A DNA stretch of 64,000 bases from the NCBI RefSeq assembly GCF_011683915.1, contig NZ_JAAQPH010000010.1, forward strand, positions 62,001 through 126,000, read 5' to 3'. Each line of letters begins with the position of its first letter. The stretch's first letter is position 1. The notes beneath the pieces are model-generated. The model was not told the origin of the DNA, did no database searches, and saw only the letters and a list, made by a program, of their open reading frames with translations. Origin of the DNA: Pelagibius litoralis. GTDB lineage: Bacteria > Pseudomonadota > Alphaproteobacteria > Kiloniellales > Kiloniellaceae. Shown piece by piece: positions 30,760 to 51,804 of this stretch. A program made the position numbers and the translations under genes.

Positions 30760-32756
<1,997 letters not shown>

Positions 32757-32811: not shown

Positions 32812-32863
32812 CTGCCGAAGCTCGGTCGAACTTACTGTTTTATCGACTTACGTCGAAACGGTT

Positions 32864-32934: not shown

Positions 32935-32957
32935 TGCCGCCTAAACCGACAAGAGCT

Positions 32958-33764: not shown

Positions 33765-33802
33765 GAAAGCCTCCTCAGTTTTCTTTTTCTTTGCGCCGCT
33801 TG

Positions 33803-34738
33803 TTACCGTTCGCCGCGAACGTAGGGGTGACCCAGCGCCGGCGGCAGATAGCTGTGTCGACCGAAGATGACGAGCACCAGCATGACCATAGCAAAGGGCA
33901 GCATCTGCACAACATCGGTCGGAATGTTGAGACCGGCCACCTGTAAGGCGGTCGTCAAGGCGAGACTGGCACCGAACAGCAGCGCGCCAAAAAGCACCCA
34001 CAGCGGCCGCCCCCGCGCCAGCATGGCCAGTACGATACCGATGAAACCGGCGCCGCCGGTCATGAAAGGGATGAAAAGGCCGGCGCCGACGTTGGCCATG
34101 TAAGCCCCCCCGATTCCGGCAAGAAAGCCGGTCGACAGCACGGCATAGACCCGCGTCGCGATGACGCTGACGCCTGCCGCATCCAGGGCCGATGGTTTGT
34201 TACCCGCCGCTTCAAGGTTGAAGCCGATGAAGGTCGAGCGAAACACCCAACCCAGGGCGAAGACGACCGCGACCGCCAGGTAGACGAGCGGGTGGTGGGC
34301 AAAAAGCGCAGAACCCAGAACCGGTATGTCGCTCAGCAGTGGAATCCGCAGGGCGCCGGACTCGCCCAGCCTCGGGTAGGTCCTGCTGAATTGGAAGAAG
34401 TGCAGCAGCGCGGTCAAGCCTTCGACGCCCAGGGTGAGAGCGATGCCGATGACGATCTGGTTCATGCCGAAACGCACGCAGAAGACGGCCATCAGAACCG
34501 CCACCGCCGCGCCACCCAGGCCGCCGAACAAAAACCCGGCCCAAAAGGATCCGGAATAGTAGGCCGCTGCAAAGCCACAGTAAGCGCCCATCAGCATCAT
34601 GCCCTCGATGCCGATGTTGAGGACGCCGGACTTTTCCGAAATCTGTTCGCCCAGGCCGGCCAGCAGCAGCGGTACCCCCGCGGTAATGGCGCCGAACACC
34701 AGCGACGTGATGAAGGCTTCGGTCAGAAGTGCGCCCAT
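33803..34738 (-). CDS. ABC transporter permease, BMP/nucleoside type (second permease)
   Basis: A 311-residue permease of the BPD_transp_2 class, with about nine or ten helices and the family segment EKSGVLNIGIEGMMLMGAY near residue 35. It forms the membrane channel with the permease encoded upstream, an ATP-binding protein and a BMP-family binding protein. I chose ATG 34738, just before which the first permease stops; the longer frame starts with TTG inside that gene. Its proximity to B6 catabolic genes, with the lactonase only 38 bases downstream on the same strand, suggests it imports vitamin B6 vitamers, though family members usually carry nucleosides. Confidence 0.88.
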   Translation of the reverse strand: MGALLTEAFITSLVFGAITAGVPLLLAGLGEQISEKSGVLNIGIEGMMLMGAYCGFAAAYYSGSFWAGFLFGGLGGAAVAVLMAVFCVRFGMNQIVIGIALTLGVEGLTALLHFFQFSRTYPRLGESGALRIPLLSDIPVLGSALFAHHPLVYLAVAVVFALGWVFRSTFIGFNLEAAGNKPSALDAAGVSVIATRVYAVLSTGFLAGIGGAYMANVGAGLFIPFMTGGAGFIGIVLAMLARGRPLWVLFGALLFGASLALTTALQVAGLNIPTDVVQMLPFAMVMLVLVIFGRHSYLPPALGHPYVRGER

Positions 34739-34743
34739 GGCCT

Positions 34744-35817
34744 CTAAGCCCTCGCCTGCTTGCGCCAACGCTGGTCAAGATATTCGACCAGGGCGAAAAA
34801 GATCAGCAGCAGGGAAACCAGCACCAGGACATAGTACTGCGGCACACCGAGGCGCCGCGAGGCGCTCTCGCCACCGATCATAAGAACGGCGAAAAACAGC
34901 ACAAAGCCGATGGTTGCCGCGCCGTGAAAGCGCGCGAGAAACACCAGCGGAATCACGAGGAGACCATAGGCGGGATTCCAATCGGCGCGCATGGTGCCCC
35001 AGACCCCGAGGATCTCCACCGAACCGGCAAGCCCGGCAAGCCCGGCGCTGATGGCGAAGGTGGCATAGGTCAGTTTCCCGACGGCCAGACCTGTGTGAAC
35101 CGCAGCGCGCGGGTTGGCGCCGACGACCTGGAGCTTCAGGCCGAAGGCGGTCCGCGTCATCATCAAATGCACAAGCAGCAACGCAACCAGCGCAATGAGA
35201 ACGCCGCTGTGAATCGTGGTGTCGAACAGGCGCGGCAGGCGCTCGTCGACCGGAAGCGTCGCCGTCTGAGGCACCGTGGTCGACGGGTCGTTGAAGGCGA
35301 TCTTGACCAGTACGTTGGAGAGGCTGATGCCCAGGAAGCTCATCATCAGCGTCGTGATGATCTCGTTGATCCCGTAGCGGACTTTGAGAAAAGCGGGCAG
35401 CAACGACCAGGCGGCGGCCACGGCCGTGGAAACCGCAAAGCAGGTCACGATGGTCAAGCCGCGCGGCATGGAGTCCATCAACACAGGCGCCAAGGCCGCG
35501 GTGACGACCGATGCCAGCAGGAACTGGCCGTCAACGCCCAGATTCCAGATTCCAGCCCGAAAAGCGACGATCAGGCCGGCGGCGATCAAAAGCAGCGGCG
35601 CGATTCGCGTGATGGTCGCTTCCAGACCGCTCGGCGAGAACAAGCCCCGGCTGATGACGTAACCATAGTAGGTCAGGGGATCCTTGCCGAACGACAGCAG
35701 GATGAGGGCGCCGACGAAAAGGGCCAGAAAGACCGGCACCAGAACCCGCACGACAGCAAGCAGACTGTCGCGGATCTGTGTCGTGTCGGCGTCCGATCGC
35801 TCGCTACCCGTCGTCAT
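34744..35817 (-). CDS. ABC transporter permease, BMP/nucleoside type (first permease)
   Basis: A 357-residue permease with about nine or ten helices, of the YufP/NupP type (FRAGIWNLGVDGQFLLASVVTAAL, YGINEIITTLMMSFLGISLSN). It pairs with the second permease six bases downstream. The start overlaps the stop of the ATP-binding gene (ATGA). The N-terminal 35 residues are a cytoplasmic leader before the first helix (VVRVLVPVFLALFVGAL). Confidence 0.9.
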   Translation of the reverse strand: MTTGSERSDADTTQIRDSLLAVVRVLVPVFLALFVGALILLSFGKDPLTYYGYVISRGLFSPSGLEATITRIAPLLLIAAGLIVAFRAGIWNLGVDGQFLLASVVTAALAPVLMDSMPRGLTIVTCFAVSTAVAAAWSLLPAFLKVRYGINEIITTLMMSFLGISLSNVLVKIAFNDPSTTVPQTATLPVDERLPRLFDTTIHSGVLIALVALLLVHLMMTRTAFGLKLQVVGANPRAAVHTGLAVGKLTYATFAISAGLAGLAGSVEILGVWGTMRADWNPAYGLLVIPLVFLARFHGAATIGFVLFFAVLMIGGESASRRLGVPQYYVLVLVSLLLIFFALVEYLDQRWRKQARA

Positions 35818-37451
35818 GCCGCCGCGGCCCCGGTCATGAGCAGGCCGATTTCTCTCTCGACCCCTTCCCCGTTTTCAACGATACCCGCCAATCGGCCCTG
35901 AAACATCACGGCAATTCTGTCGGAAAGCTCAATCAACTCGTCCAACTCGGTGGAAATCAAGATCGTTGCCAGGCCGGACTCCGCACCGCGGCGGATACGG
36001 TCGCGCGCGAAGCGCGTGCTCTGAAGATCCAGACCATAGGTCGGCTTGTTGAAAACCACGACCTTTGCCTCGCCGACAAGATCGTCGGCAAGCTCGCGGG
36101 CAAGCAGCACTTTCTGAATATTGCCGCCCGACAGCCGGCCGATCGGCGTGCGCTCGGACGGCGTGCGCACGTCATGCTCGCGGATCTGCCCGCGCGCATG
36201 GGCAAAGATTCTGTCCCAGAGGCTGATGCCATGGCGCCACAGCGGGGGCTGCCCGATCTCCTTCATGACCACGTTGTGGGCGACGGAGAAAGCGCCGACC
36301 GTCCCCTCCCCCAGCCGTTCGTCGGTGATGTAGCGTATGCCCAGTTTGCGGCGGTCGGGAACCCCAAGCCGCTCGATCTTCGCGCCTTCCAGAAAAATCT
36401 CGCCCTGCGCCGCCAGCCGCTGGCCGGCCACGGCCTCGGCGAGATGTTTCTGGCCGTTCCCATCGACACCGGCAATGCCGAGGATCTCGCCCGGGAACAA
36501 CGAAAAGGAAACGTCCTGCAGAGGGCATTCCCCGACGTCGCCCTGCGTCGAAACCGCCCTGAGATTCAGGCAAGGCTCCTCCGCCTGCCGCTCCGCCGAC
36601 AAATGAGGCCGGCGATGACCGAGACCGGAGAGGGTCTCGGCGTCCTGGTCGTGGCCTTCCGTCGAGCCGAACATGAGCCGTATCACTTCATCGGTCACGG
36701 CCTGCTCGTCCATGCCCGAAAGGCGTTCCTTATCTATCGAACCGACCAGCTTTCCCAACCGCAACACGGAGATGCGATCCCCGAAGGCATAGGCCTCCTG
36801 CAGTTTGTGGGTAATGAAGACGATGGCCACCCCTTCGTCGCGCAGCCGAACCATGACCTGGCCCAATTCACGCACGCCTTCCGGGGTCAACATCGAGGTC
36901 GGCTCATCGAGCACGAGGACGCCTTCGCCGCGCCAAAGCGCCCGAACGATCTCCACCTGCTGTTGCTGGCCGAGCGACAGACGGCCGACCAGGGCATCCG
37001 GTGAAATCTCCAGGGCCAGGAGTTCGGAGAGTTCGCGAAAACGTTTCAGCGCCGCGTCCCGGTCGATCCGCCGCCACCAGGCGCCGCCGAGCATCAGGTT
37101 CTCCAGGACCGTCAGGCTCTGAACCAGCAGGACGTGCTGGAAGACCGTTCCAATTCCCAACTCCAGGCTCTCGCGTGGCGATCCGATCCGCACGCTCGCC
37201 CCGCGAACCCGGATCTCGCCGGCGTCGGGTTGCTGCATACCGGCCAGAATCCCGATCAGGGTCGACTTGCCGGCGCCATTCTCGCCGAGCAGCACATGGA
37301 TCTCCCCGGGCCTGAAGTCCAGGGAGATATCATCGTTCGCGAGAACGCCGGGAAAGCGCTTGGTTATACCGCGCAGTTCGACAAAGCCTTCGCCGCCCCC
37401 ACTATGGGCGGCTGTGGCCGCGGCTGCGGGATCTGTGGAACCTGTGTTCAT
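35814..37451 (-). CDS. ABC transporter ATP-binding protein with two ABC domains
   Basis: A 545-residue cytoplasmic ATPase with tandem ABC domains, like the YufO/NupO and sugar-type transporters. Domain 1 has Walker A GENGAGKST and signature LSLGQQQQVEIVRAL with VLDEPTSML. Domain 2 has a degenerate Walker A (GVDGNGQKHL) and signature LSGGNIQKVLLAREL, with N in place of D-E in VVFNKPTYGLD. The degenerate second site is usual in this class, though the complete loss of the acidic Walker B pair is worth noting. It overlaps the first permease gene and follows the BMP gene on the same strand. Confidence 0.92.
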   Translation of the reverse strand: MNTGSTDPAAAATAAHSGGGEGFVELRGITKRFPGVLANDDISLDFRPGEIHVLLGENGAGKSTLIGILAGMQQPDAGEIRVRGASVRIGSPRESLELGIGTVFQHVLLVQSLTVLENLMLGGAWWRRIDRDAALKRFRELSELLALEISPDALVGRLSLGQQQQVEIVRALWRGEGVLVLDEPTSMLTPEGVRELGQVMVRLRDEGVAIVFITHKLQEAYAFGDRISVLRLGKLVGSIDKERLSGMDEQAVTDEVIRLMFGSTEGHDQDAETLSGLGHRRPHLSAERQAEEPCLNLRAVSTQGDVGECPLQDVSFSLFPGEILGIAGVDGNGQKHLAEAVAGQRLAAQGEIFLEGAKIERLGVPDRRKLGIRYITDERLGEGTVGAFSVAHNVVMKEIGQPPLWRHGISLWDRIFAHARGQIREHDVRTPSERTPIGRLSGGNIQKVLLARELADDLVGEAKVVVFNKPTYGLDLQSTRFARDRIRRGAESGLATILISTELDELIELSDRIAVMFQGRLAGIVENGEGVEREIGLLMTGAAAA

Positions 37452-37513
37452 AAACTGAGAGGCCGCCGGCCCGAAAGGATGCCTTTCCAGCGCTTCCGGG
37501 CCGGCAGGAACCC

Positions 37514-38566
37514 TTACTCCCCGGCCTCGACAGAGCTCATGAGTTTGCGCACTGCCTGGGCGTCCGAGACCTGATCAACGGCGATCTTACCGTCGATGAT
37601 ATCCTGGCGCAGAGTCGTCATATCACCCCAGATATCGTCTGGGATATGCGCCGTCTTGAGCAGTTGAACGGAGTTGTCCGCCAAGCCGATTTTATAATGC
37701 TTGGTACCGAATTTCCCCGCTTTCAGGTCTTCGACCATGGCGCTGTAGACCGGCACCATGTTCCACATGACCGAGGAAAGCAGATGGCCTTTGTCGATCG
37801 ACGACTTGTCGCCGATGACATCGATGAACCAGACATTTCCGCCATCAACGGCTTTCGTGGTCTCAACAGCGCCGATCATGCCAAAGCTGGACCCGTTACC
37901 CTGACCGAAGACGATATCGGCACCGGCCGAGATCACCGATTCAGTGACACGACGGCCGCCGGCGGCATCCGCATAGGCGGCCGGACCGATCACCGCATAG
38001 ATGATCTTGATGTCCGACTTCTCGGCCTTGGCGCCGATCGCAAAACCGGCCGATTGGGAATTCCAGGACGGCGGCTCGCCCGACACCACGACGCCGAGGG
38101 TACCCGACCGCGACATCCGCGCGGCCATACGGCCTGCGAGATAGGCGCCTTCGTGGCCGCTCAGGGTATAGTCAGTGACCAGGCCTTTCTCCAATGCATC
38201 CGGCTGGTCGACGATGGCCACCGGCACGCCGGTTTCCTTGGCGATTTCCGGCGCGGCGGTGTTGTAGCCGCTGGCATGGCCAATCATCAGGCTGGCCCCC
38301 TCTTCCGCCAGCTCCCGCAGGGTCGGCCGGACATCGCCATAGCCCAGTCCTTCGGCGGGCAGGAATTCGAGGCCATATTTCTCTGCCACGATACGGGCGG
38401 CATCGACACCCTGCTGGTTCCAGCCGAAATCGGTGCCCTGCTCGGGCACGAGAATCGCCAGCTTCTTCACTTCCGCAGCTGACGTCATCGAGGCCATGCT
38501 GAAAATCGCCACCGCCATCAAAGCGCCGGAAGCGAAAAGCTTTTTGCTTACCATTTTCCTATTCAT
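37514..38566 (-). CDS. BMP-family substrate-binding lipoprotein-like protein
   Basis: A 350-residue periplasmic binding protein of the BmpA/PnrA family, with an N-terminal signal peptide (ASGALMAVAIFSMASMTSAA) lacking a lipobox cysteine. Visible family segments are LVPEQGTDFGWNQQGVDAA, SGHEGAYLAGRMAARMS and DIVFGQGNGSSFG. ATG 38566 has GGGGAG ten bases upstream; the TTG three codons earlier is too close to that site. First gene of the ABC operon that leads to the lactonase, so the ligand could be a B6 vitamer; canonical members bind nucleosides. Confidence 0.9.
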   Translation of the reverse strand: MNRKMVSKKLFASGALMAVAIFSMASMTSAAEVKKLAILVPEQGTDFGWNQQGVDAARIVAEKYGLEFLPAEGLGYGDVRPTLRELAEEGASLMIGHASGYNTAAPEIAKETGVPVAIVDQPDALEKGLVTDYTLSGHEGAYLAGRMAARMSRSGTLGVVVSGEPPSWNSQSAGFAIGAKAEKSDIKIIYAVIGPAAYADAAGGRRVTESVISAGADIVFGQGNGSSFGMIGAVETTKAVDGGNVWFIDVIGDKSSIDKGHLLSSVMWNMVPVYSAMVEDLKAGKFGTKHYKIGLADNSVQLLKTAHIPDDIWGDMTTLRQDIIDGKIAVDQVSDAQAVRKLMSSVEAGE

Positions 38567-38664
38567 CGTCTGCAAGCTCCCCTTGTTGGTCTTTTTTTAC
38601 GGCCGCCGTTCTTGTTATTCAAAGACTGACCCGTCGCCCCGCGGCTCCTCGACAACGGTGAAAT

Positions 38665-39672
38665 TCATCGCTTCTGCTCGATCACCTCGAGCAGCAGATC
38701 GTATTCCTCGGCAATGGACGGCTCTGCGCGCAGCACAGCACCGCCCACCTCGGCAAAGCGCGCCATCATACGCGCCCGGTCATCGGCCGGCAGGTCGATG
38801 ATCTGGCCGCCGTTTTCCACCCAGGCCTTATTGGAACGCTCAACGTTTGCAATACCCCAGGGCAGGACCGCCTGCTCCGCCGCGCGACCGGCAGCGCGGA
38901 TCGCCTCGCGAACCTCCGGCGTCTGGGCCTGGAACCAGGCCTCACCGACCACATTCACCGATACGATCTGCTGCGACTGCAGGTTGGTCACATCGGTGGC
39001 AACGTCATAGAACTTGAACGCTGTCAGGATCGGCATCCCCGCCAGCATACCGTCGATGTTGCCCGACTGCAGCGCCGGAACCACTTCGCTGAGTGCCAAC
39101 GGCAAGGGACTGGCCCCCAGATCCTTCAGCGGATCGATCTGCAGGGGCGAAGCGAAGGTACGTATCTTCAGCCCCTTCAGGTCATCCAGGGTTCGAACCG
39201 GTTGACGCGACAGCAGCAGCATCGGGCTGTTGAATACCGCGCCGATGACCCGGATACCTTTGTCGAGCGCCAGCGTTTCCAGGTGGTCGCGGTAGGCCGG
39301 GTCATGGATTACCCGCGCCACGTGCTCCGGCGAGTCGAAAACGCCGGGGGCGTCGTAAATCTGAAAGCGCGGATCGGTTCCGGGCAGGAAGGCCGTCGGT
39401 GTGATGAAGCTCTCCACGGTGCCGAGAAGAACCCCCTCGACCATCCGGGGGATGGTGCCCAGCTGACTGGCCGGATAAATCTCCACCTTGACCTTGTCGC
39501 CGACCCTGGCGGCCAGCTCTTCGGCAAAGACTTTCTGCCATTCATGCTGGACGTCGTTGATCGTGGCGCTGGCCAGCTTCATGACGACTTCGGCACGGCC
39601 CTCGCGGGCCGGCAGGAACGCCAACGAAGCGAGAATGAGGAGGGCGAAAGCTGCCTTGTAAGTCTTTTTCAT
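38665..39672 (-). CDS. TRAP transporter substrate-binding protein, DctP family
   Basis: A 335-residue periplasmic binding protein with a signal peptide (FALLILASLAFLPAREGRA) and the DctP pattern of VMKLASATINDVQHEWQKVFAEEL, FPAR-like region KVEIYPASQLG and VEGVLLGTVESFITPTAF. The conserved ligand-carboxylate arginine is probably in DDLKGLKIRTFASPL. It lies 24 bases after dctM. The cargo is likely an organic acid; its operon encodes a ring-cleavage enzyme set, so a pyridine carboxylate is possible. Confidence 0.9.
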   Translation of the reverse strand: MKKTYKAAFALLILASLAFLPAREGRAEVVMKLASATINDVQHEWQKVFAEELAARVGDKVKVEIYPASQLGTIPRMVEGVLLGTVESFITPTAFLPGTDPRFQIYDAPGVFDSPEHVARVIHDPAYRDHLETLALDKGIRVIGAVFNSPMLLLSRQPVRTLDDLKGLKIRTFASPLQIDPLKDLGASPLPLALSEVVPALQSGNIDGMLAGMPILTAFKFYDVATDVTNLQSQQIVSVNVVGEAWFQAQTPEVREAIRAAGRAAEQAVLPWGIANVERSNKAWVENGGQIIDLPADDRARMMARFAEVGGAVLRAEPSIAEEYDLLLEVIEQKR

Positions 39673-39695
39673 TGTTCCTCCACTTGAACGTCGTC

Positions 39696-40967
39696 CTACA
39701 GGGTTCGGGCCAACAGCAACGAAAGCTGGGGCACGAAGGTGATGGCGCCGAGGGCAACCAACTGCACGCAAAAGAAGGGCAGGATACCGCGATATATATC
39801 CGCAAGCTGCGCACCCAAGACTGACTGGGATACGAAGATGTTGAGGCCGAAAGGCGGCGTGAACATGCCAAGCGAAAGATTGACCGTCATGATGATCCCG
39901 AAATGGATCGGGTCAATTCCCAGGTGCTGGATAATGGGCATGAGAATAGGTGTCAGCACCAGGATCGCCGAGGTCGGGTCCAGAACACAACCCAGCAGAA
40001 GCAGAAAGGCGTTGATGACCAGCAGGAAGCCGACCGGCGTCAGATCAAGATCGGCAATCCAACCCAGCGTCGCCTGCGGCACACCCTGCACCGAGAGAAC
40101 CCAGGAGAACACACTGGCACTGGCGACGATGATCAGAACCTGAGCGGTCAGATAGGCGGAATGGGTCGCCGACTCGAGAATTTCCCCCCAACTGAGGCTT
40201 CTGAAGAGAAAGCGCGCTACCAGCAGAACGTAGAGGCAGGCAAAGCCGCCGGCCTCGGTGGGGGAGAACAGCCCGAGGTAAATCCCGCCGAGAACCAGAA
40301 CCGGCATGAAAAGCGCCGCCGCCGCATCGCCGGACGCACCGGCGAGACGCTCGCCTTCGGGCCGGGGCGAGGTCTGCAGTTGCCGGCGCTGTGCCCACCA
40401 GAGAATGTAGACCGCCATGACAAGAGCCAGGAGCAACCCGGGGATGATACCGGCCAGGAAAAGCCGGGGGATGGATTGCTCGGCAGTGGCGCCGTAAAGG
40501 ATCATCGCAATGCTGGGCGGCACGATGATGGCGATTGAGCCGCTCGATGTGACCAGACCCAGGGAGAAGCGTTCGCCATAACCGGCGCGCTTCAGGTCCG
40601 GGTAGAGCGTCTGCCCCAAAGCGGCCACGGTCGCCGGGCTGGAGCCGGAGACGGCGCCCAGCAGGGTGGCGGTCCCGACAGTCGCCAGCCCCAGGCTGCC
40701 GCGCAGGTGGCCGACCATCGCCAGAACCCAATGGGTCAGGCGTTCGGCGATGCCGCTGCGCGCCATAAGGTCGCCGGCAAAGATGAAAAACGGCACTGCG
40801 AGCAGGGCATAATTATCGACACCGCCGAACATGACCTGGTGCAGCGCAATCGGCGGCACACTCATGAACAGCAGCAGGGCCGTGGCCGCGCCGGCAAGAA
40901 GCACGATGTAGATCGGCAGCCCGGCAACGAAGAGCGCCGTCGGTATGGCCAGGAGCGCCCAGGTCAT
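39696..40967 (-). CDS. TRAP transporter large permease, DctM family
   Basis: A 423-residue membrane protein with about 12 helices. DctM features are the PLFFFAGDLM-like AVPFFIFAGDLMARSGIAERL, GTATLLGAVSGSSPATVAALG, and GLVTSSGSIAIIVPPSIAMILYG. It forms the Na+-coupled transport unit with DctQ and DctP. The start overlaps the dctQ stop by four bases. It is the penultimate gene of the long operon that begins with the cupin dioxygenase. Confidence 0.93.
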   Translation of the reverse strand: MTWALLAIPTALFVAGLPIYIVLLAGAATALLLFMSVPPIALHQVMFGGVDNYALLAVPFFIFAGDLMARSGIAERLTHWVLAMVGHLRGSLGLATVGTATLLGAVSGSSPATVAALGQTLYPDLKRAGYGERFSLGLVTSSGSIAIIVPPSIAMILYGATAEQSIPRLFLAGIIPGLLLALVMAVYILWWAQRRQLQTSPRPEGERLAGASGDAAAALFMPVLVLGGIYLGLFSPTEAGGFACLYVLLVARFLFRSLSWGEILESATHSAYLTAQVLIIVASASVFSWVLSVQGVPQATLGWIADLDLTPVGFLLVINAFLLLLGCVLDPTSAILVLTPILMPIIQHLGIDPIHFGIIMTVNLSLGMFTPPFGLNIFVSQSVLGAQLADIYRGILPFFCVQLVALGAITFVPQLSLLLARTL

Positions 40968-41518
40968 GGCCCTTCCCCCCCTTGACCAGGCTCATCCCGG
41001 CCGGCAGGCGCAGTCCGTAGCGTCGCCGCCTGCCTTAGCAGCGCCAGCAGCAACACCAGAGACGACAAGCCAAAACCGACGAGGATCGCAGAGTGCGGGA
41101 TATAGGTCGGGATTGCGGCTGCCATCGAGCGCTGCCCCAGGGCCGCCAGGCGCCCGACCACCTCAAACGACTGCAGGGCAACGAAGCCGAGCAGGACGAT
41201 CATGATCAGATCGCCCGCCACCCGGACGAAGCCGCGCAGGCGCGGGCGCAGGGCCCGGCTGACCACATCGAAACTGAGATGCCGCCGGTCGAGCGTGACG
41301 AAAGCCGCCCCCAGAAAGACAACCCAGACCATCCCGAAAACCAGCAACTCGTCGGAACCCTCGATCGCCTGGCCCAGAACATAGCGGGACAGGGCGTTCG
41401 CCACGTTGAGAAGCACCATGGCGATCAGGAGGACGCCCAAAGCCCTGCGCGCCCAGCGCCCCACCAGCGCGGCGGGGGCCGCGGGATTCCGGTTGGAACC
41501 GGGTGGTGTTCCAGGCAT
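40964..41518 (-). CDS. TRAP transporter small permease, DctQ family
   Basis: A 184-residue membrane protein with four helices (ALGVLLIAMVLLNVANALSRY, LLVFGMVWVVFLGAAFVTLDRRHLSFDV), typical of DctQ. The ATG at 41518 is chosen because the longer frame to 41608 reads through the end of the dehydrogenase gene; there is only a weak ribosome site (GGGAGATCG further upstream). It overlaps dctM by four bases. Confidence 0.85.
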   Translation of the reverse strand: MPGTPPGSNRNPAAPAALVGRWARRALGVLLIAMVLLNVANALSRYVLGQAIEGSDELLVFGMVWVVFLGAAFVTLDRRHLSFDVVSRALRPRLRGFVRVAGDLIMIVLLGFVALQSFEVVGRLAALGQRSMAAAIPTYIPHSAILVGFGLSSLVLLLALLRQAATLRTAPAGRDEPGQGGEGP

Positions 41519-41546
41519 CGACGACACGGGCTTTGCGATCTCCCTT

Positions 41547-42464
41547 CTAGGTTTCCAGGGCTCGGCGGACGGCGACCAGCTTCTTCGCCCGCGCCGCGCG
41601 CAGCTCACCGACCTGTTCCGGCGTGTAGTCGAACATCCCGCCGCCGGTCTTCATGCCCAGGTCGCCGCGGCCGGTCTTCTCGGCGATCAGGGCGCTCACA
41701 TCCTTGCGCGCGCAGAGATCCTCGTTGAGATAACTGCCAACCGCCTGATAGATGTCGAGGCCCGCCATATCGAGCAGCGCCATCGGGCCAACCACGGCCA
41801 GCTTGTAACCGATACCCCAGGACACGCAGGTGTCCAGGCTCTCGGCATCGATAACGCCCTTCTCGACCAGATCGACGGCCTCGCGCATGATGGCATAGAG
41901 AATCCGGTTCTCGACGAAACCCGGAACGTCCTTTTTCACCAGTACGGGCAGCATGTTGAGCCCGGTAACCGTCTCAACCATCCAGGAAACCGTCTCCGGG
42001 CTGGTCTGGGCCCCGGCAACCACCTCTATGATGGGGATGATGTGCGGCGGATTGGACCAATGCATGCCGATGACACGCCCCGGCGCCGAAACGTCGGCCT
42101 GCAGCTTGGTAATCGGGATGCCGGAGGTGTCCGAGGCCAGCACACAGGACCCGCTCACCAGAGCATCGATCTGATGCAGCACCTCAACCTTCAGGTCGAG
42201 TTTTTCCGGCACGTTCTCAATCACCAGGTCGGCATCGGCGACACAGTCGGCCAGGCTGTCGACAATACGCGGGGCCACATCCCCACCCTTGTCCGGCATC
42301 CCCAGGGCATTCAGAACCTGGTTAGCCGCCGATATCGCCGGTAAGGCATTGGCGCGCTGATCCGCGCTCACATCATAGGCCGACACCGCCATGCCGGCGC
42401 GTGCCAGGGTCGCCACCATTCCGGTGCCCATTGTGCCCAAACCGATAACGGCGGTCCTGATCAT
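41547..42464 (-). CDS. 3-hydroxyacyl-CoA dehydrogenase-family enzyme, FHMPC 5-dehydrogenase candidate
   Basis: A 305-residue NAD enzyme. The N-terminal Rossmann motif is VIGLGTMGTGM (residues 6-16), then LVIENVPEKLDLK, SDTSGIPITKLQ, a GMHWSNPPHIIPIIEVVAG strand, and the C-terminal helical domain with VPGFVENRILYAIMREAVDLVEKG. This resembles, as I recall it, the Mesorhizobium enzyme that oxidises the 5-formyl group of FHMPC to 3-hydroxy-2-methylpyridine-4,5-dicarboxylate. The context (B6 upper pathway beside it, a GMC enzyme that would make FHMPC in the divergent unit) supports it. A dehydrogenase for an unrelated hydroxy acid is the alternative. Confidence 0.62.
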   Translation of the reverse strand: MIRTAVIGLGTMGTGMVATLARAGMAVSAYDVSADQRANALPAISAANQVLNALGMPDKGGDVAPRIVDSLADCVADADLVIENVPEKLDLKVEVLHQIDALVSGSCVLASDTSGIPITKLQADVSAPGRVIGMHWSNPPHIIPIIEVVAGAQTSPETVSWMVETVTGLNMLPVLVKKDVPGFVENRILYAIMREAVDLVEKGVIDAESLDTCVSWGIGYKLAVVGPMALLDMAGLDIYQAVGSYLNEDLCARKDVSALIAEKTGRGDLGMKTGGGMFDYTPEQVGELRAARAKKLVAVRRALET

Positions 42465-42510
42465 CGTGCCATTCTCCGTTTCGCGCCCGGCCAGTGGGCG
42501 CGGCCCACAG

Positions 42511-43110
42511 TCATGCGGTTGCCTTTTTGAAAGCGTCCCGCTCGGCAACGCGCGCATGCCAGGCCCGCAACCTGGGCAAGGCCGACAGTTCGACCGGGAA
42601 ATTCAGACAGCGCTCGACGATCGGGCCGAGGCAGATGTCGGCAAGCGACATCTCCGCCCCCGCCAGCCAGCCCCCATCGTCCAGAGCACCGTCCAGAATC
42701 CGGAGTTGCTGGTCCAGTTCCTTCCCATGATTGGCAAGGTCCGGCGAACGTTCCTCGGGCGCCTTCTTCGATTCACGAAAGATCGCCATGTAGGGATTGT
42801 TCAACGTGGCGAGCTGCCAGTCCATCCAGCGGTCGACTCGGCTGCGGACCGCCGGATCGCCCGGATAGAGCGCGTCGCCGGCCTGTTTGCTGAGATAACG
42901 GAGAATGGTGTTCGATTCCCACACGGCAATATCGCCGTCCAGCAGGGTCGGCACCTTGCCGTTCGGGTTCAAGGCAAGATAGGCGGCGTCCTGGGTGTTC
43001 CCGAACTGCCGGCCATAGTCCTCGCGTTCATAGGGCTGCCCCGTCTCCTCCAGCAGCCAGATAACCTTTTGAACGTTCCCCGACGTCTTGCGTCCCAAAA
43101 GTTTCAGCAT
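42511..43110 (-). CDS. Glutathione S-transferase family protein
   Basis: A 199-residue two-domain GST. The N-terminal thioredoxin fold has LGRKTSGNVQKVIWLLEE, the cis-proline segment NPNGKVPTLLDG and the glutathione-contact WESNTILRYL; the C-terminal helical domain has SLADICLGPIVERCLNF. The Ser/Thr near residue 9-10 is the likely glutathione-activating residue, as in beta/theta-like or isomerase types. Encoded between a dehydrogenase and RidA in the cupin dioxygenase operon, it could isomerise or thiolate a ring-cleavage product, as maleylpyruvate isomerase does. Substrate unknown. Confidence 0.85.
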   Translation of the reverse strand: MLKLLGRKTSGNVQKVIWLLEETGQPYEREDYGRQFGNTQDAAYLALNPNGKVPTLLDGDIAVWESNTILRYLSKQAGDALYPGDPAVRSRVDRWMDWQLATLNNPYMAIFRESKKAPEERSPDLANHGKELDQQLRILDGALDDGGWLAGAEMSLADICLGPIVERCLNFPVELSALPRLRAWHARVAERDAFKKATA

Positions 43111-43177
43111 CTTTTTTTCTTCTCGTTGCGGACCGCGGCCCCGCAGCGCGGGAACGGCCCAGGTTGGCCTCAAGCCA

Positions 43178-43570
43178 TCAGTCGAGTGGCTTATAGGCAA
43201 TGGCATCCATTTCGATCTTGGTATCGATGACGGCCCGCGCCTCCACCGTGGTGCGGGCGATGCATCCATCCGGAAAATACTCGGCAAAGACCCGGTTGTA
43301 GCGACCGAAGTCCCGAGTATCTTCAAGGTAGGTGGTGACCCTGACGATATCGCCCAGATCGGCACCCGCCTCGGCGAGGATCCGCCGCAGGCATTCGACG
43401 GTCCAGCGCGTCTGTTCCTCAATATTGCCGGCACACATGTTGCCGTTCTCGTCCTTGGCGACCTGACCGGAGATGAAAATGAAGTCGCCGGCCCGCACGG
43501 CGGGGTGAAACGGCAGGTTCGGGTTCTTCTTACCGATCGCCTCTATGGCCGATCCACTTTTCTTCGCCAT
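43178..43570 (-). CDS. RidA family enamine/imine deaminase-like protein
   Basis: A 130-residue member of the YjgF/YER057c/UK114 family, with family segments FHPAVRAGDFIFISGQVA, NIEEQTRWTVECLRRILAEAG, DIVRVTTYLED and CIARTTVEARAV. The arginine in IARTTVEARA corresponds to the catalytic Arg105 that binds the carboxylate in RidA. Canonical RidA hydrolyses 2-iminopropionate and 2-aminoacrylate. In this operon it may hydrolyse an imine formed by cleavage of a pyridine ring; that is inference. Confidence 0.9.
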   Translation of the reverse strand: MAKKSGSAIEAIGKKNPNLPFHPAVRAGDFIFISGQVAKDENGNMCAGNIEEQTRWTVECLRRILAEAGADLGDIVRVTTYLEDTRDFGRYNRVFAEYFPDGCIARTTVEARAVIDTKIEMDAIAYKPLD

Positions 43571-43599
43571 TTTCTTCCCCCCCTGTACCCGGTCGGACC

Positions 43600-44727
43600 T
43601 TAAAGGACCGAGGTTTCGATGATGTCGACGCCGTAGTTACGGTCGATCAGATAGAGCAGCCCGCGCGAGTCCATGGTGACGTCGTTCGACGAAGCCAGCT
43701 CGAAGCCTTCTGGTGCCTCGACTTCGTAGAAGCCGACTTCCTTGGGTTGATAAGGATCGGCGATGTCGACCAGACGCAGCCCCTGTGCGAACCAGGCGAA
43801 GGGAATGATCGTGCCGCTGAAGCGCTCCGAAGGCTGGTGGCAGCCCATCATCGGTGGCTGCGGCGAGCCATCCCGGTCGAGCCCTTCGACCTGAAATGTC
43901 GAAATCGGAACCGGGCAGACCTCGTTGGTGATGTCGTAGATCCAGGTGAACGACGGCGCGGCCGGCCACAGCTTGGCGACGTCCTCGTCGGCCACCACCA
44001 TGATTTTCCGCCCCTTCAAGGGTTCGGGAATCGGCAGGCAGGTATGGGTGGGGTGCGGAAAAGTCGGCGAGGTATTGCCGCCGGAGACCATCTTTGGCCG
44101 CGACATGTCGCTGATGTCGAGAATGTAGTAACCATGGTGCCAGTAGCTGACATAGAGCCGGTCGCCCATGCGAAGCGGATGATGGCAGCGCGGCGTCACC
44201 CAGTCGTGCCAGGGATATTCCTCACCGCCGGCTTCCCACTGCCCGGGAATCCACCAACGCCCAACCTCCTCCGGCTTTGCCGGGTCCTTGAGGTCGAGGA
44301 TCATCGTGATATTACCGATGTAGCCCTCTGCCGTCGGCGAGATGTAGGCATAGCGCCCATCGAAGTCATAGCGGTGGACGCCTTTGCCGTGGGTGCGCCA
44401 CTTGTTGATCAGTTTCGGATTTGCCGGGTCGGCCACGTCGTAGATTCCGAGACCACCGCCGAACGTGGGGTCGCCGTCCTGTCCCAGGCGTTCATGATTG
44501 ACCACCATGATGCCGTCGGCGGCCCGCACCTTGTGGGAATGCCAACCGGTCGGCAGGTCGATCCGGCTCAGAATCTTGGGATTCCTCGGATCGGCGACAT
44601 CGACGATGGTCGTGCCGCTGGGATTGCGCATATGACCGATGTAAAGGGTGGTGCCGTCGACCCAGACCTGACCGCCGCCGGGACAGTCGATGTGGGCGAG
44701 GTGCGTGGTATTCCAGGTCTTTGCCAT
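43600..44727 (-). CDS. LVIVD-repeat beta-propeller protein
   Basis: A 375-residue protein built of repeated IVDVADPRNPK, GIYDVADPANPK, MILDLKDPAKPEE, YILDISDMSRPK and RLVDIADPYQPKE units, about seven blades, which places it in the LVIVD-repeat group. No signal peptide is visible. Metal-like His-rich loops occur (PWHDWVTPRCHHPLR, SYWHHGYY, PTHTCLP). Function is unknown; several LVIVD proteins are encoded with dioxygenases. It follows the cupin gene by 25 bases, so the two products may act together. ATG 44727 is used because the longer frame overlaps the cupin gene. Confidence 0.85.
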   Translation of the reverse strand: MAKTWNTTHLAHIDCPGGGQVWVDGTTLYIGHMRNPSGTTIVDVADPRNPKILSRIDLPTGWHSHKVRAADGIMVVNHERLGQDGDPTFGGGLGIYDVADPANPKLINKWRTHGKGVHRYDFDGRYAYISPTAEGYIGNITMILDLKDPAKPEEVGRWWIPGQWEAGGEEYPWHDWVTPRCHHPLRMGDRLYVSYWHHGYYILDISDMSRPKMVSGGNTSPTFPHPTHTCLPIPEPLKGRKIMVVADEDVAKLWPAAPSFTWIYDITNEVCPVPISTFQVEGLDRDGSPQPPMMGCHQPSERFSGTIIPFAWFAQGLRLVDIADPYQPKEVGFYEVEAPEGFELASSNDVTMDSRGLLYLIDRNYGVDIIETSVL

Positions 44728-44752
44728 AAATCCTATCTCCGCCGCCGGTCGA

Positions 44753-45901
44753 TCAGACCAGCCGGACGACTTCGCCCGATTCCAGGCGGCCATGTTTCTG
44801 GTAAAGCGACAGCGCCTTCAACGTCGGCTCGTCGCTGGCAACGAAGAGGATGGCGGGCTCGCTATCTGACTCGTTCACATGCTCGCACCAACTGCCGCCG
44901 GGCACCGCAAGGGTGTCGAAGACGCCCCAGTCAAGCTTCTTTCCATCGATAAGACTGTGGCCGCGCCCTTCAAAAGGCGCGCAGAGCAGGCTTGCGTTCT
45001 GTTTCAGCGGGCGGGTGCGTTCGCCCGGCCGCAGCATCTGCATGAAGAACGTGATGGTCTTGAAGACCGGCTTGCCGTTGGTCGGATCGACATATTCGAC
45101 CAACAGGGCCTCGTAGGGATCGCCGTCCCAGTCCCTGAACTTCTCCAGCAGCTCGCGCATCATCTCCCAACGATAGACGTACATGGGCGCGGCATTGCCG
45201 GTACCGCGGTGATGCGACACGAAGCGCGGCATCAGTCCGCCGCTACCGTAGACCCGCTGCGAATAGTCGGAAGGGAAGCGCTCGGACTGTACGGCCTTGC
45301 GGACCCGCTCGCCCTCTTCGACCTCCGTGTAGTCATGCTCGAAGTAGGTGGCGTTCAAGGTTTCGACGAGGGGCACGTCAAGCACGCTCAGATTGACCGC
45401 CGGCTCGTCGCCCTGGTTGCCATGATTGTGCCATGTGTCGTGCGGCGTCAGCACCATGTCGCCGGGACCGAAGGTGATGTTCTCGCCCTCCACGCCGGTG
45501 AAATTCTGCGTTCCCGTCAACCCGAGCCTGATGGCATTCGGTGAATGGCGGTGCGGCGGCATGATCTCGCGCGGATCGTTCAGGCGATAAGCGGTGTACA
45601 TGGTACTGACCGAGGCGCGGCGCGGCGCCAGGCCGGGGTTGACCAGGATCAAGGAGCGCCGCTCGGAGGATTCGGTCGTGATCAGTTCCGCCGAGCGCTG
45701 GAGCAGCGGCTCGATATCGCGGTCATACTTCCAGACGAAGGGTATGGCCTTCTTCTTGTCCATGACCTGGCGGTCTTCATCGTGGTCGGCCGTCGTATCG
45801 ACCGCCCAGAAAGGCGCCATATCCGCGCTGTGAACATCCTCGTGCAGCTTGTCGAGAGCGGCTTTCAGATTGTGATCGGCGGTTTTTTCGATTTCCGGCA
45901 T
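44753..45901 (-). CDS. Gentisate/salicylate 1,2-dioxygenase-type cupin
   Basis: A 382-residue bicupin of the gentisate, salicylate and 1-hydroxy-2-naphthoate dioxygenase family. The N-terminal cupin supplies the Fe(II) ligands: H117 and H119 in PPHRHSPNAIRLGL and H158/H160 in TWHNHGN, with GDMVLTP between. These enzymes cleave the bond between a hydroxyl-bearing and a carboxyl-bearing ring carbon. The C-terminal cupin (PFEGRGHSLIDGKKLDWG, LAVPGGSWCEH) is present. First gene of the minus-strand operon, divergent from gntR. The start is ATG 45901; GTG 45910 is possible. A pyridine substrate is my inference. Confidence 0.85.
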   Translation of the reverse strand: MPEIEKTADHNLKAALDKLHEDVHSADMAPFWAVDTTADHDEDRQVMDKKKAIPFVWKYDRDIEPLLQRSAELITTESSERRSLILVNPGLAPRRASVSTMYTAYRLNDPREIMPPHRHSPNAIRLGLTGTQNFTGVEGENITFGPGDMVLTPHDTWHNHGNQGDEPAVNLSVLDVPLVETLNATYFEHDYTEVEEGERVRKAVQSERFPSDYSQRVYGSGGLMPRFVSHHRGTGNAAPMYVYRWEMMRELLEKFRDWDGDPYEALLVEYVDPTNGKPVFKTITFFMQMLRPGERTRPLKQNASLLCAPFEGRGHSLIDGKKLDWGVFDTLAVPGGSWCEHVNESDSEPAILFVASDEPTLKALSLYQKHGRLESGEVVRLV

Positions 45902-45997
45902 CCCATCCACCCTGCGTTTTTTATTGGCCCGGAGCCCTGCCGGACCGATCCGGGATAACCCTATGCCGTCTCACTTGTGCTTCGGCAGCATCCCTGT

Positions 45998-46019
45998 TTG
46001 GTGACAACACGGTAACCAA
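45998..46019. promoter_or_regulatory. TTGGT...ACCAA dyad, possible GntR operator 1
   Basis: The segment begins TTGGTGAC and ends GGTAACCAA, giving TTGGT/ACCAA half sites around an ACAACAC centre. FadR-subfamily GntR regulators favour TGGTnnnACCA-like sites. It lies about 97 bases upstream of the cupin start. Confidence 0.45.
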
Positions 46020-46052
46020 TATCGAAACCAAGCGTCAAGAAACATCTCTCTT

Positions 46053-46060
46053 TTGGTACC
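46053..46060. promoter_or_regulatory. TTGGTACC box, possible GntR operator 2
   Basis: TTGGTACC followed by GG, a GGTACC core (46055-46060) shared with the box at 46224. It lies about 150 bases from the cupin start and 280 bases from gntR. Confidence 0.35.
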
Positions 46061-46212
46061 GGTGTTGAGTCATGGCTTGGCAGAACAACCAGACGATGCG
46101 CTTAACGAGGTTGCCATCTCCTGGCTCATTCGCTAGATTTTCGAGATTAAAACAGCCAGTATTCAATACCTTTGGCGACAGCTTTCCGGCAACACAAAGC
46201 CCTTGCTTTAAA

Positions 46213-46231
46213 CGTAACCATTATGGTACCA
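46213..46231. promoter_or_regulatory. GTAACCATTATGGTACCA dyad, possible GntR operator 3
   Basis: GTAACCAT and ATGGTACC form an imperfect inverted repeat around one T, and TGGTACCA at 46224-46231 is itself a perfect palindrome. It is followed by an AT-rich TTATATAG that could serve as a -10 element for gntR, 111 bases before its start. Confidence 0.5.
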
Positions 46232-46341
46232 ATTATATAGTGCTTTCCGCCTTCTACCCCAGGTGACCATATAGGTTCCATTTCGACTTCCCGGCGAGTA
46301 TTGAGACCAATGATCATCAACACCACAAAGCGACGAGCCTG

Positions 46342-47025
46342 ATGGAACGCTACGAGCATACTCTGGCCAAGCTGCGCGAACTTCTGAACGAAGGCGTTCT
46401 GACCAGCGGCGAGCGGCTGCCGCCGGAACGCATCCTGGCAAGCGAACTTCATGTCGGCCGGCGATCGCTGCGCCGGGCGCTTGGCGTGCTGGAGGAAGAA
46501 GGACATATCTCGCGCCAGCAAGGGCGCGGCACTTTCGTCAACGACTCGATCAAGGTGCCCAGCCTTGGCATCGACAGCATTCTCGAACACACCAATCCGC
46601 TGGAAGTCATAGAGGTCCGGCTGTCGTCGGAACCCGTGATGGCGCGGCTTGCCGCCTTGCGGGCGTCACGCTGCGATATCGAGCGGCTTAACCGGCTGGC
46701 GGAGGATACCGAAAAGGCCGAAGGCCCGGTCGAATATGAAACCGCCGACGGGGCTTTCCACCGCCGCATCGCCGAGGCATCGCGCAACGCCCTTTTCCTG
46801 TCGCTCTACGATACCCTTAGCGCAAGCCGAAACGACGACGCCTGGCGCCGTCTGGGCGAGAACGCCCATTGCTACAAAAGACAGGCCGTCTATGCCGGCT
46901 TCCACCGCCAGATCGCCGAAGCGATCGGCGCGCGCGATGGCGAAAAAGCCGAGGCGCTGATGTACGAGCACCTGAGCGACGTACAACAGCACATCTACCG
47001 GCACATCTTTCCACAACGCTCTTAG
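46342..47025 (+). CDS. GntR-family regulator, FCD (FadR-like) type
   Basis: A 227-residue regulator with an N-terminal winged helix ([48 protein letters not shown] region) and a C-terminal all-helical FCD ligand domain with the metal-binding pattern D-x3-H in [12 protein letters not shown] and later His in the [15 protein letters not shown] helix. FCD domains bind carboxylic acids through a metal. It probably controls the divergent cupin operon and the GMC gene downstream, responding to a pyridine carboxylate or related intermediate. The gene for the GMC enzyme starts 41 bases after its stop. Confidence 0.9.
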
Positions 47026-47066
47026 AACAACGACGAAACCGGGCCGGCTCGCAGGGGGAGACTATC

Positions 47067-48710
47067 ATGGTGAGGGAGTCGGCGTTCGACTACGTAATCG
47101 TTGGTGCCGGCTCGGCGGGCTGCACCCTGGCCAACCGCCTGTCGGAAGACCCCGACACCACCGTGCTGCTGCTCGAGGCCGGCGGGTGGGACCGCGATCC
47201 CTGGATCCACATCCCGCTCGGCTGGGGCAAGATCCTGCAAGGCCGGTTGCACGACTGGATGTATTTCTACGAGCCGGACGAAACCGTCGACGGACGCCGG
47301 GTGGAATGCGCCCGCGGCAAGGTCGTCGGCGGTTCCTCGTCGACCAACGCGATGGCCTACGTCCGGGGCAACCCCGGCGACTACGACCGCTGGGCTGCAG
47401 CGGGGCTGAGCGACTGGTCCTTTGACAAGGTCCTGCCGTACTTTCGCAAACAGGAGACCTGGGGCGGCGGTGCGGACGCCTATCGCGGCGGCGACGGCCC
47501 GCTTTCAACCCAGTACTGCCGCTTCGAGGATCCTCTTGTCGACGCCTTCGGCGAGGCCGGCGTCTCCGCAGGCTTCGGCTGGACCGATGACTATAACGGC
47601 GAGCGGCAGGAGGGCTTCGGCCGCCTCCAGATGACGATCCGCGAGGGACGCCGTTGCAGCGGCGCCTCCGCTTATCTTCGCCCGGTCCTGAAAAGAACGA
47701 ACCTGCAGATCGAAACGAAGGCGCTGGCAACACGCGTGGTCCTGGAGGGCGGGCGCGCGGTCGGGATCGCCTACCAGCAAGACGGACAACAACTCATTGC
47801 GCGGGCGAAGCGCGAGGTGATCCTGGCCGGGGGCGTCATAAACTCCCCGCAGCTTCTCCTGCTTTCCGGCATCGGCGATCCCGACGATCTGCAAAAGATG
47901 AACATCCCGGTGCAGGCCGCTTTATCCGGCGTCGGCCGGAACCTGCAGGATCATGTCTCGGTCATCCTGATGTCTCAGCGCAAACAGCCCGGCCCCTTTC
48001 TCCGCATGATGCGCGCCGACCGGATCGCGCGTGAGCTGGCGAAGGCCTATCTGTTCGGCAAGGGTTTTGCCGCCGACGTGCCGGGCGGGATCACCGCGTT
48101 TCTGAAAAGCCGCGCCGAGATCGAGCTGCCCGATATCCAGTTCCTCTTTACCGCGGCTTCGCTCGGCGCCTGGCCCTACTTTCCGCTTTTCAAGAAGCCC
48201 TTTCCCGATTCCTTTGCCTGTCGGATCGTCATGCTGCGCCCTGAAGGCCGGGGCCGCGTCTCCCTGCGCTCCGCAAACCCGGAAGACCCGCCGCTCATTC
48301 ATCAGAATTTCATGTCGAGCGAAGCCGATTGGGAAACCATGCGCGCCGGCGTGCGCATGGCGCGCAGGGTTCTCGCCCAGCCGGAGATGGCGCCTTTTTC
48401 CGGCCCCGAGATTGCGCCAGGTGCGGATAAGACCAGCGATGCCGAGATCGATGCCTACATCCGGGCCAGCTCGATCACCGTGCATCATCCCCTGGGCACC
48501 TGCCGCATGGGTATCGAATCCGATCCCCTCTGCGTCGTCGACCCTGATCTGCGCGTCCGGGGCATCGAGGCCCTGCGCGTCGTCGATGCCTCGGTGATGC
48601 CGGACCTCGTAAGCGGCAATATCAACGCCGCCGTTGTCATGATCGCAGAAAAGGCGGCCGATCTGATCAAAGCGCCGGCATCAAGCCCGGCAATGGCCGC
48701 ATCGGCCTGA
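47067..48710 (+). CDS. GMC oxidoreductase, 4-pyridoxate dehydrogenase candidate
   Basis: A 547-residue FAD enzyme of the GMC family. The FAD motif is [16 protein letters not shown] near residue 10, the GMC signature is [21 protein letters not shown], and the catalytic residues are His in [11 protein letters not shown] and Asn in SGNINAAV. Segments such as [10 protein letters not shown] and HDWMYF resemble Mesorhizobium 4-pyridoxic acid dehydrogenase, which oxidises the 5-hydroxymethyl group to give FHMPC. GCAGGGGGAG precedes ATG 47067; the longer frame overlaps gntR. A choline-dehydrogenase-like alcohol oxidoreductase is the alternative. Confidence 0.65.
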
Positions 48711-51802: not shown

Positions 51803-51804
51803 GG

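Follow-up and report, generated by a model that had tools for sequence, protein, structure and literature searches.

A vitamin B6 catabolic island with a cupin-led operon

A stretch of 64,000 nucleotides from Pelagibius litoralis (assembly GCF_011683915.1, contig NZ_JAAQPH010000010.1, positions 62,001 to 126,000; hereafter, the window) was analyzed for its vitamin B6 catabolic genes. All of the genes of this island lie in one block of 19.6 kb, at window positions 29096-48710, where homologues of the upper enzymes of the textbook pathway are found together with an operon that starts with a cupin of the gentisate/salicylate 1,2-dioxygenase superfamily. It is quite likely that the island encodes an alternative lower pathway, in which the cupin, an LVIVD-repeat protein, a RidA-family protein and a protein of glutathione S-transferase (GST) fold would act after the formation of 3-hydroxy-2-methylpyridine-4,5-dicarboxylate (HMPDC), with ring cleavage between C3 and C4. 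The features are as follows, each with the evidence for its assignment.

29096..30652, minus strand: pyridoxine 4-oxidase (PNOX), GMC oxidoreductase; closest Protein Data Bank (PDB) chain 4ha6, E 1.1e-146
30760..31941, plus strand: pyridoxamine-pyruvate transaminase (PpaT/PPAT); NF046070, 635.6 (cut-off 600)
32016..32756, plus strand: pyridoxal 4-dehydrogenase (PLDH); NF047923, 427.2 (cut-off 325)
32958..33764, minus strand: 4-pyridoxolactonase; NF047925, 481.7 (cut-off 325)
33803..38566, minus strand: BMP-type ABC transporter (two permeases, ATPase, binding protein); type read from sequence
38665..39672, minus strand: TRAP binding protein (DctP-like); open reading frame (ORF), homologues in some other cupin loci
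39696..40967, minus strand: TRAP large subunit (DctM-like); ORF, homologues in some other cupin loci
40964..41608, minus strand: TRAP small subunit (DctQ-like); ORF, operon position and sequence reading
41547..42464, minus strand: dehydrogenase of FHMPC, the 5-formyl intermediate (FHMPC_DH), which would make HMPDC; NF042925, 513.0 (cut-off 500), and 4om8
42511..43110, minus strand: GST-fold protein, proposed isomerase or glutathione-dependent enzyme; Pfam GST_N/GST_C
43178..43570, minus strand: RidA/YjgF-family protein, proposed imine/enamine hydrolase; PF01042
43600..44727, minus strand: LVIVD-repeat beta-propeller, putative metal-dependent hydrolase; Pfam LVIVD
44753..45910, minus strand: cupin of the gentisate/salicylate 1,2-dioxygenase superfamily, proposed ring-cleaving dioxygenase; sequence and predicted fold
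46342..47025, plus strand: GntR-family regulator, divergent from the cupin operon; ORF, homologues adjoin the cupin in many loci
47067..48710, plus strand: 4-pyridoxate dehydrogenase, GMC oxidoreductase; PF00732/PF05199, 67% identity to a gene of locus L137

Textbook pathway I, as found in Mesorhizobium loti MAFF303099, consists of PNOX, PPAT, PLDH, 4-pyridoxolactonase, 4-pyridoxate dehydrogenase, FHMPC_DH, the decarboxylase HMPDdc, the FAD monooxygenase MHPCO and the amide hydrolase AAMS, and the first six of these are present in the window. Four of the six (PPAT, PLDH, 4-pyridoxolactonase and FHMPC_DH) score above the respective NCBIfam equivalog cut-offs, and the nearest PDB chain of FHMPC_DH, 4om8, is annotated as FHMPC dehydrogenase (E 9e-115). 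The PNOX assignment comes from the closest PDB chain only, and the GMC oxidoreductase at 47067-48710 was assigned by its 67% identity to the gene preceding FHMPC_DH in the textbook-type Mesorhizobium operon L137, which we take to be the 4-pyridoxate dehydrogenase of Mukherjee 2007. The genes for the cupin, LVIVD, RidA, GST, FHMPC_DH and TRAP proteins are consecutive on the minus strand, no more than about 70 bases apart, and thus are probably transcribed together. A preliminary description of this DNA had referred to an upper pathway with, next to it, a 4-pyridoxate-dehydrogenase-like GMC enzyme and an FHMPC-dehydrogenase-like enzyme; the genes for all of these are indeed there, four of them above equivalog cut-offs; it had also recognized the cupin-led operon with RidA and GST, which stands, but had omitted a fifth member, the LVIVD propeller gene at 43600-44727.

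The textbook lower-pathway genes are missing from the genome

The genome of the window has 6.03 Mb and is 99.48% complete. The lower-pathway queries (HMPDdc, MHPCO and AAMS) were taken from the Mesorhizobium locus L137 (genome G537) and checked against known structures, with MHPCO matching 3alj (842 bits), AAMS 3kxp, and HMPDdc 2z7b, which is titled 'Mlr6791 protein' and is presumably HMPDdc itself. No orthologue of any of the three was found in the window's genome, where the best matches have E 1.8e-7 for MHPCO (34% over 87 amino acids), E 1.5e-11 for HMPDdc (29%) and E 1.1e-16 for AAMS (28%) and are, judging from their sequences, remote superfamily members. The absence of the classical decarboxylase, monooxygenase and hydrolase from the window, as previously noted, is therefore borne out by the searches and extends to the whole genome, the place where their discovery would have spoken against a variant route. 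The search does detect true orthologues of MHPCO, since 27 further Mesorhizobium genomes match at 91-99% (the 100% match in G537 is a self-hit, the queries being derived from that genome); this positive control covers MHPCO only. The cupin is present as a single copy in the window's genome.

Within the class, MHPCO-like genes of 36-50% identity are found in 11 of the 385 genomes analyzed. These were not counted as MHPCO, and only one of the 11 genomes, G346, has FHMPC_DH at E <= 1e-100. There, on contig C37 (locus L158), two MHPCO-like flavin oxygenase genes (41-42%) stand in tandem, and the cupin operon lies elsewhere in the genome.

Co-occurrence of the cupin gene set with vitamin B6 genes

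The relation between the two lower pathways was examined within a single genus. Among 119 genomes assigned to Mesorhizobium through L074, the record at the centre of the sample, with a threshold of E <= 1e-80 for each of FHMPC_DH, the cupin and MHPCO, FHMPC_DH is found in 43. It is accompanied by the cupin in 15 of these and by MHPCO in the other 28, no genome of the 43 having both or neither, and the remaining 76 lack all three genes. The distance to FHMPC_DH is 3.2-3.4 kb for the cupin and 4.6-4.9 kb for MHPCO in every case. The hypergeometric value for the cupin falling inside the FHMPC_DH set is 4e-8; as genomes within a genus do not represent independent samples, this is not a true probability.

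FHMPC_DH was also used as bait, without use of the cupin, against samples of the order (61 genomes) and of the class (385 genomes) at E <= 1e-100. Positives were found in 4 of the former and 6 of the latter, giving 9 distinct genomes including the window's own; two in the order and four in the class are above the family cut-off, and the gene of G041 is cut by the contig end. In all eight of the other FHMPC_DH loci, a cupin (68-81% identical) and an LVIVD gene adjoin, and RidA and GST genes are present in seven of them. In a converse search, the cupin was used as bait against a species-level genome collection, which gave 149 loci with a relative, the best 80 of which were retained. At least one B6 gene is found in 77 of these 80 loci, and for the other three (L029, L048 and L061) the contigs cover the flank only in part. 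Within the flanks of the same 80 loci, LVIVD is found in 78, making it the most constant partner of the cupin, RidA in 68, GST in 68 and FHMPC_DH in 66; of the other B6 genes, a 4-pyridoxate dehydrogenase-like GMC gene (match of at least 55%) occurs in 55, a PNOX-like gene in 38, the lactonase in 21, PLDH in 13 and PPAT in 6. The two bait tests overlap, since seven of the eight FHMPC_DH loci recur among the best 80. Five loci (L050, L051, L052, L057 and L058) have a compact operon of cupin, FHMPC_DH and LVIVD, with no RidA or GST gene within the flanks.

As the large scans scored part of each genome's first-look candidates (up to 5 in the class scans, 16-17 in Mesorhizobium and 31 in the order), weak copies could be missed. 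The association of the cupin with B6 genes is beyond chance, and the survey of other genomes that had been suggested for the cupin set was positive (8/8; 77/80; 43 = 15 + 28). We are confident, from this replacement relation, that the cupin set serves as the lower B6 route in place of the decarboxylase, the FAD monooxygenase and the amide hydrolase.

Features of the cupin

By sequence and predicted fold, the cupin is nearest to 2d40, 3bu7 and 2phd (26-28% identity). The predicted model has a pLDDT (predicted local distance difference test) of 82.6, being weak at 30-48 and 88-92, and superimposes on 2d40 with a root-mean-square deviation of 2.8-3.4 over about 330 columns, compared with about 10 over the whole length for 3bu7 and 2phd. 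Scores are far under the cut-offs of the characterized families, with 214 versus 650 bits for the 5-aminosalicylate 1,2-dioxygenase MabB (NF049978) and 206 versus 442 for gentisate 1,2-dioxygenase (GDO, TIGR02272); three relatives of the cupin score 202-216 bits against these models (209-216 for TIGR02272).

In a low-identity alignment with salicylate 1,2-dioxygenase (SDO), the iron ligands are kept as His116, His118 and His157 (His119, 121 and 160 in SDO). The residues of acid-base catalysis are kept as well, and the alignment also preserves the equivalents of SDO Arg127 (Arg124), His162 (His159), Ala125, Leu176 and Arg83. Four positions are replaced, namely (SDO first) Gln108 by Arg105, Trp172 by Asn169, Asp174 by Ser171 and Trp104 by Tyr101. 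Both the kept and the replaced residues are identical in 89 of 89 rows from 82 distinct loci, many of the Mesorhizobium copies being near-identical; the rows are those of the window, the 80 loci and L011-L018, seven of which duplicate loci among the 80, and rows counted for the cupin and for RidA are free of stops and cover more than 80% of the query.

PMC11264262 reports conservation of Gln108, Trp172 and Asp174 throughout the GDOs (Leu38 of its list is outside our alignment). According to an excerpt of PMC10306065, the 5-hydroxyl of gentisate is recognized by Asp174 and Trp104, residue 104 being tyrosine in most GDOs, and the substrate carboxylate is bonded by Gln108 and Arg83. Given the changes Gln108 to Arg105 and Asp174 to Ser171, the added arginine and the lost aspartate would suit a substrate that, like HMPDC, bears one more carboxylate and lacks the 5-hydroxyl. 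We rate the cupin, on its sequence, as a new subfamily of the gentisate/salicylate dioxygenase superfamily, for which ring cleavage is proposed. When FHMPC_DH and the cupin were searched for on plasmids, only distant homologues were obtained, none of which reached 60% identity (the highest among those listed being 40% and 39%). Of the two top-ranked plasmid cupins, one lies in a gentisate/salicylate-type cluster and the other in a cluster with fumarylacetoacetate hydrolase, and the gene table, which is incomplete, shows no B6 gene next to them.

The LVIVD, RidA and GST partners

None of the four replacement genes passes a curated cut-off of the NCBIfam models used, and their assignments are at the family level. 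The LVIVD model (pLDDT 88) is nearest to the phosphotriesterase of Sphingobium TCM1, 5hrm (Foldseek E 2e-17; query and target TM-scores, TMq and TMt, of 0.70 and 0.55), and thereby has the predicted fold of this beta-propeller enzyme. Against the 5hrm profile, the whole sequence gives E 7.6e-10 and single stretches only 0.005 and 0.02. Eight histidines (His32, 63, 65, 118, 182, 225, 228 and 297) are invariant in 46 rows, and a metal-dependent hydrolase is plausible from the model, with the chances that the protein is a hydrolase being, in our estimate, evenly balanced. Plasmid homologues of LVIVD amount to 64 records (highest listed identity, 39.5%); their neighbors were considered as a clue to the reaction and discarded, the four examined adjoining tricarboxylate or sugar transporters with no common reaction. 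No paper placing an LVIVD protein together with a dioxygenase was found in the open-access literature.

In the RidA protein, Arg106, which we take to be at the place of the catalytic arginine of RidA, is found in 76 of 76 rows, and an action on an imine or enamine of the B6 route seems reasonably probable from the sequence. The GST matches the maiA model (maleylacetoacetate isomerase) only weakly (62 versus a cut-off of 171); its assignment as an isomerase is possible but rather doubtful. Also, genes between RidA and GST (L043 and L083) or between GST and FHMPC_DH (L037) were considered as a missing dehydrogenase and rejected, as they read from sequence as an ABC transporter. In the Roseomonas locus L053, which is without FHMPC_DH, no dehydrogenase was recognized in the ORF starts, for which no family search was made.

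Locus comparison and a proposed block exchange

The cupin locus of M. loti DSM 2626 was compared with the textbook-type L137. On the downstream side, the BMP binding protein is 95% identical, FHMPC_DH 84.5%, the BMP ATPase 93% (in L074) and three Ssu-like ABC genes 92-93%. The 4-pyridoxate dehydrogenases of the two loci are 82% identical; this gene precedes the cupin in L151 and follows HMPDdc in L137. Thus, the two locus types have the downstream side in common and differ in the block from PNOX to GST, which suggests that this block was exchanged at a shared locus. Other cupin-type loci (L063, L091 and L054) are less like L137, with 77-85% for the BMP binding protein and no strong Ssu match. 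SsuABC/TauABC-like ABC sets, as read from sequence, stand in or beside the B6 operons of both types (L037, 13415-16085; L043, 12758-15425; L083, 12825-15601; L137, 13078-15787).

A quick tree of FHMPC_DH was built with 84 rows and three long-branched outgroup rows, in which 11 of the 28 textbook-type loci are represented and support is weak for 30 of the 77 inner branches. All 11 textbook-type rows fall together in a single clade (support 100), nested in a group (support 99) with 26 cupin-type rows. From this nesting, and from the fact that all nine FHMPC_DH-baited genomes are cupin-type, the cupin form would seem to be older and to be present in more lineages; within Mesorhizobium, the textbook type is the commoner one (28 of 43). 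In the same tree, L040, titled Mycobacterium sp. KBS0706, clusters with Inquilinus limosus and is probably a mislabelled or mixed assembly.

As for transport, the BMP binding protein is found in 61 of the 80 cupin loci and also, at 73-74%, in the textbook-type loci L137-L139. The BMP-type ABC transporter is common to B6 loci of both types and is a candidate importer that probably takes up B6 vitamers. Genes for TctA and TctC of a tripartite tricarboxylate transporter (25239-28406, Pfam) lie close to that end of the island which carries PNOX and possibly encode a further acid transporter. At the other end, the island is adjoined by an Mrp/Mnh-type antiporter-like operon (48762-54548; Pfam Proton_antipo_M, MbhD and MbhE), and at window positions 15-2146 a haem-copper oxidase (COX1 family) and a CbbQ/NirQ/NorQ AAA protein may belong to a nitric-oxide-reductase cluster.

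Proposed route and alternative explanations

In the route that we propose, pyridoxine and pyridoxamine would be converted by homologues of the textbook enzymes to 4-pyridoxate, then to FHMPC and to HMPDC, the probable substrate of the cupin. Salicylate dioxygenase cuts between C-OH and C-COOH. By analogy, the Fe(II) cupin would bind the ortho hydroxy-carboxylate of HMPDC and, with O2, would likely cut at C3-C4, giving HOOC-C(CH3)=N-CH=C(COOH)-CO-COOH. Hydrolysis of the C=N bond and of the enamine, by RidA and possibly LVIVD, would then release pyruvate, ammonia and formyl-oxaloacetate, the latter being processed by LVIVD and GST, perhaps to oxaloacetate and formate. The atom balance of such a route closes (HMPDC + O2 + 3 H2O to pyruvate + NH3 + oxaloacetate + formate): stepwise, HMPDC, C8H7NO5, would take up O2 to give C8H7NO7, which with H2O would give pyruvate and C5H5NO5, the latter with H2O NH3 and formyl-oxaloacetate, and this with a last H2O formate and oxaloacetate. 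As drawn, neither NAD(P)H nor a decarboxylation is needed.

Several observations weigh against this route or against parts of it. FHMPC_DH is not found in 14 of the 80 cupin loci, seven of which have flanks of 3.5 kb or more on either side, nor, at E <= 1e-80, in 4 of 19 whole cupin genomes (G450, G451, G456 and G457), and thus the cupin may act on something other than HMPDC in some organisms. Among the 66 loci with such flanks on both sides, RidA is missing in six and GST in six, in partly different loci. No gene of the fumarylpyruvate-hydrolase type was seen in the cluster, which leaves the last steps without a clear enzyme, and the extra Arg105 is deduced from an alignment of low identity rather than from a complex. 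In addition, the separation of cupin and MHPCO-like genes is not absolute, by sequence, outside Mesorhizobium, where the cupin-type G346 has the two MHPCO-like genes described above and G449 a broken piece of one (49%). As for the proposed block exchange, the upstream sides of DSM 2626 and L137 differ, with PNOX at 54% and, within the stretch compared, no match for GntR of L137 or for its genes farther out than PNOX. The interpretation put forward in the preliminary description is supported in part: its core, a variant lower pathway with the cupin set, is strongly supported, within the limit set by the four cupin genomes without FHMPC_DH, and the detailed chemistry that it suggested, with HMPDC as substrate, a cut at C3-C4, RidA acting on a pyruvate imine and the GST as isomerase, would be compatible with the genes present.

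The same gaps bear on an explanation that we consider unlikely, though worth weighing, in which the cupin cleaves 4-pyridoxate or FHMPC instead of HMPDC, so that the textbook lower pathway would still be replaced and FHMPC_DH would either belong to a side branch or oxidize an aldehyde that arises later, after ring opening. Both compounds already carry the OH on C3 and the COOH on C4, and 11 of the 14 loci without FHMPC_DH keep the 4-pyridoxate dehydrogenase-like GMC gene. Yet FHMPC_DH is within the locus in the other 66, is above its equivalog cut-off in the window, and the family-wide Arg105 with the lost anionic aspartate would fit a substrate with an extra carboxylate. Two further explanations would take the cupin out of ring opening in B6 catabolism altogether. 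It is highly improbable that the operon serves another aromatic acid (gentisate, salicylate or aminosalicylate), its B6 neighborhood being regulatory or historical only: the best superfamily matches are gentisate and salicylate dioxygenases and both a TRAP-type transporter and a GntR regulator adjoin the operon, but the scores fall far short of the MabB and GDO cut-offs, residues of the gentisate site are replaced, and neither the exact split of FHMPC_DH genomes in Mesorhizobium nor the B6 genes of 77 loci would be expected. Slightly less credible still is that the set detoxifies a reactive B6 breakdown product while the ring is opened by an unrecognized enzyme elsewhere. RidA and GST proteins are often detoxifying; however, the set includes an oxygenase with an intact iron site, and in Mesorhizobium it replaces the only ring-opening enzyme of the textbook pathway, the two never being together in 119 genomes.

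Cleavage of HMPDC by the cupin remains the preferred reading. When this is combined with the history of the loci, we lean narrowly towards a joint scenario in which the cupin cleaves the un-decarboxylated dicarboxylate at C3-C4 and dedicated RidA and beta-propeller hydrolases finish the degradation with no need for NAD(P)H and no CO2 released, the cupin route being present in more alphaproteobacterial lineages and probably older, with the textbook pathway of M. loti as a local exception that arose via gene-block exchange inside a cupin-type cluster.

Relation to described systems and implications

The island resembles pathway I in the steps to HMPDC and, in the one Mesorhizobium pair compared, in downstream ABC/BMP genes of 92-95% identity. 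It differs in having cupin, LVIVD, RidA and GST genes in place of HMPDdc, MHPCO and AAMS, and in the cupin-type Mesorhizobium the 4-pyridoxate dehydrogenase gene stands before the cupin and not directly before FHMPC_DH. Pathway II runs through 5-pyridoxate, unlike the window, which encodes the 4-pyridoxate branch. The cupin itself shares with gentisate/salicylate 1,2-dioxygenases (3bu7, 2phd and 2d40) the bicupin fold, the three iron histidines and the equivalents of Arg127 and His162, but has Arg, Asn and Ser instead of Gln108, Trp172 and Asp174 and different gene neighbors. MabB and 5-nitrosalicylate dioxygenase (8ch4) are likewise ring-cleaving cupins, theirs for substituted salicylates; MabB is far in score, as given above, and 8ch4 is a monocupin with a weak match (E 2.4e-4).

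Two bacterial B6 routes are described in an excerpt of PMC3538738, in which a cupin is not mentioned; the second (Pseudomonas IA and Arthrobacter Cr-7) starts from pyridoxine and ends in 2-(hydroxymethyl)-4-oxobutanoate. Nor was a description of a cupin route found in the open-access literature, outside which most subscription papers lie, in agreement with the earlier supposition that it had not been described. We rate the island as a known pathway in a new variant form, with a new subfamily of ring-cleaving cupins.

B6 is listed, in a passage of PMC12746152, among the few well-characterized cofactor catabolic pathways. If the proposal holds, what has been characterized would cover a single lower route of two, perhaps that of narrower distribution. 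Pyruvate, oxaloacetate and formate, the products predicted here, differ from the succinic semialdehyde, acetate and CO2 given for pathway I in the excerpt of PMC3538738. The cupin route would add to the chemistry of pyridine-ring opening, would point to a part in catabolism for a RidA protein and an LVIVD propeller, and would define a cupin subfamily that can be tested. Moreover, two alternative gene sets for one half of a pathway, sorted perfectly in the sample of one genus, would offer a case for studies of pathway replacement.

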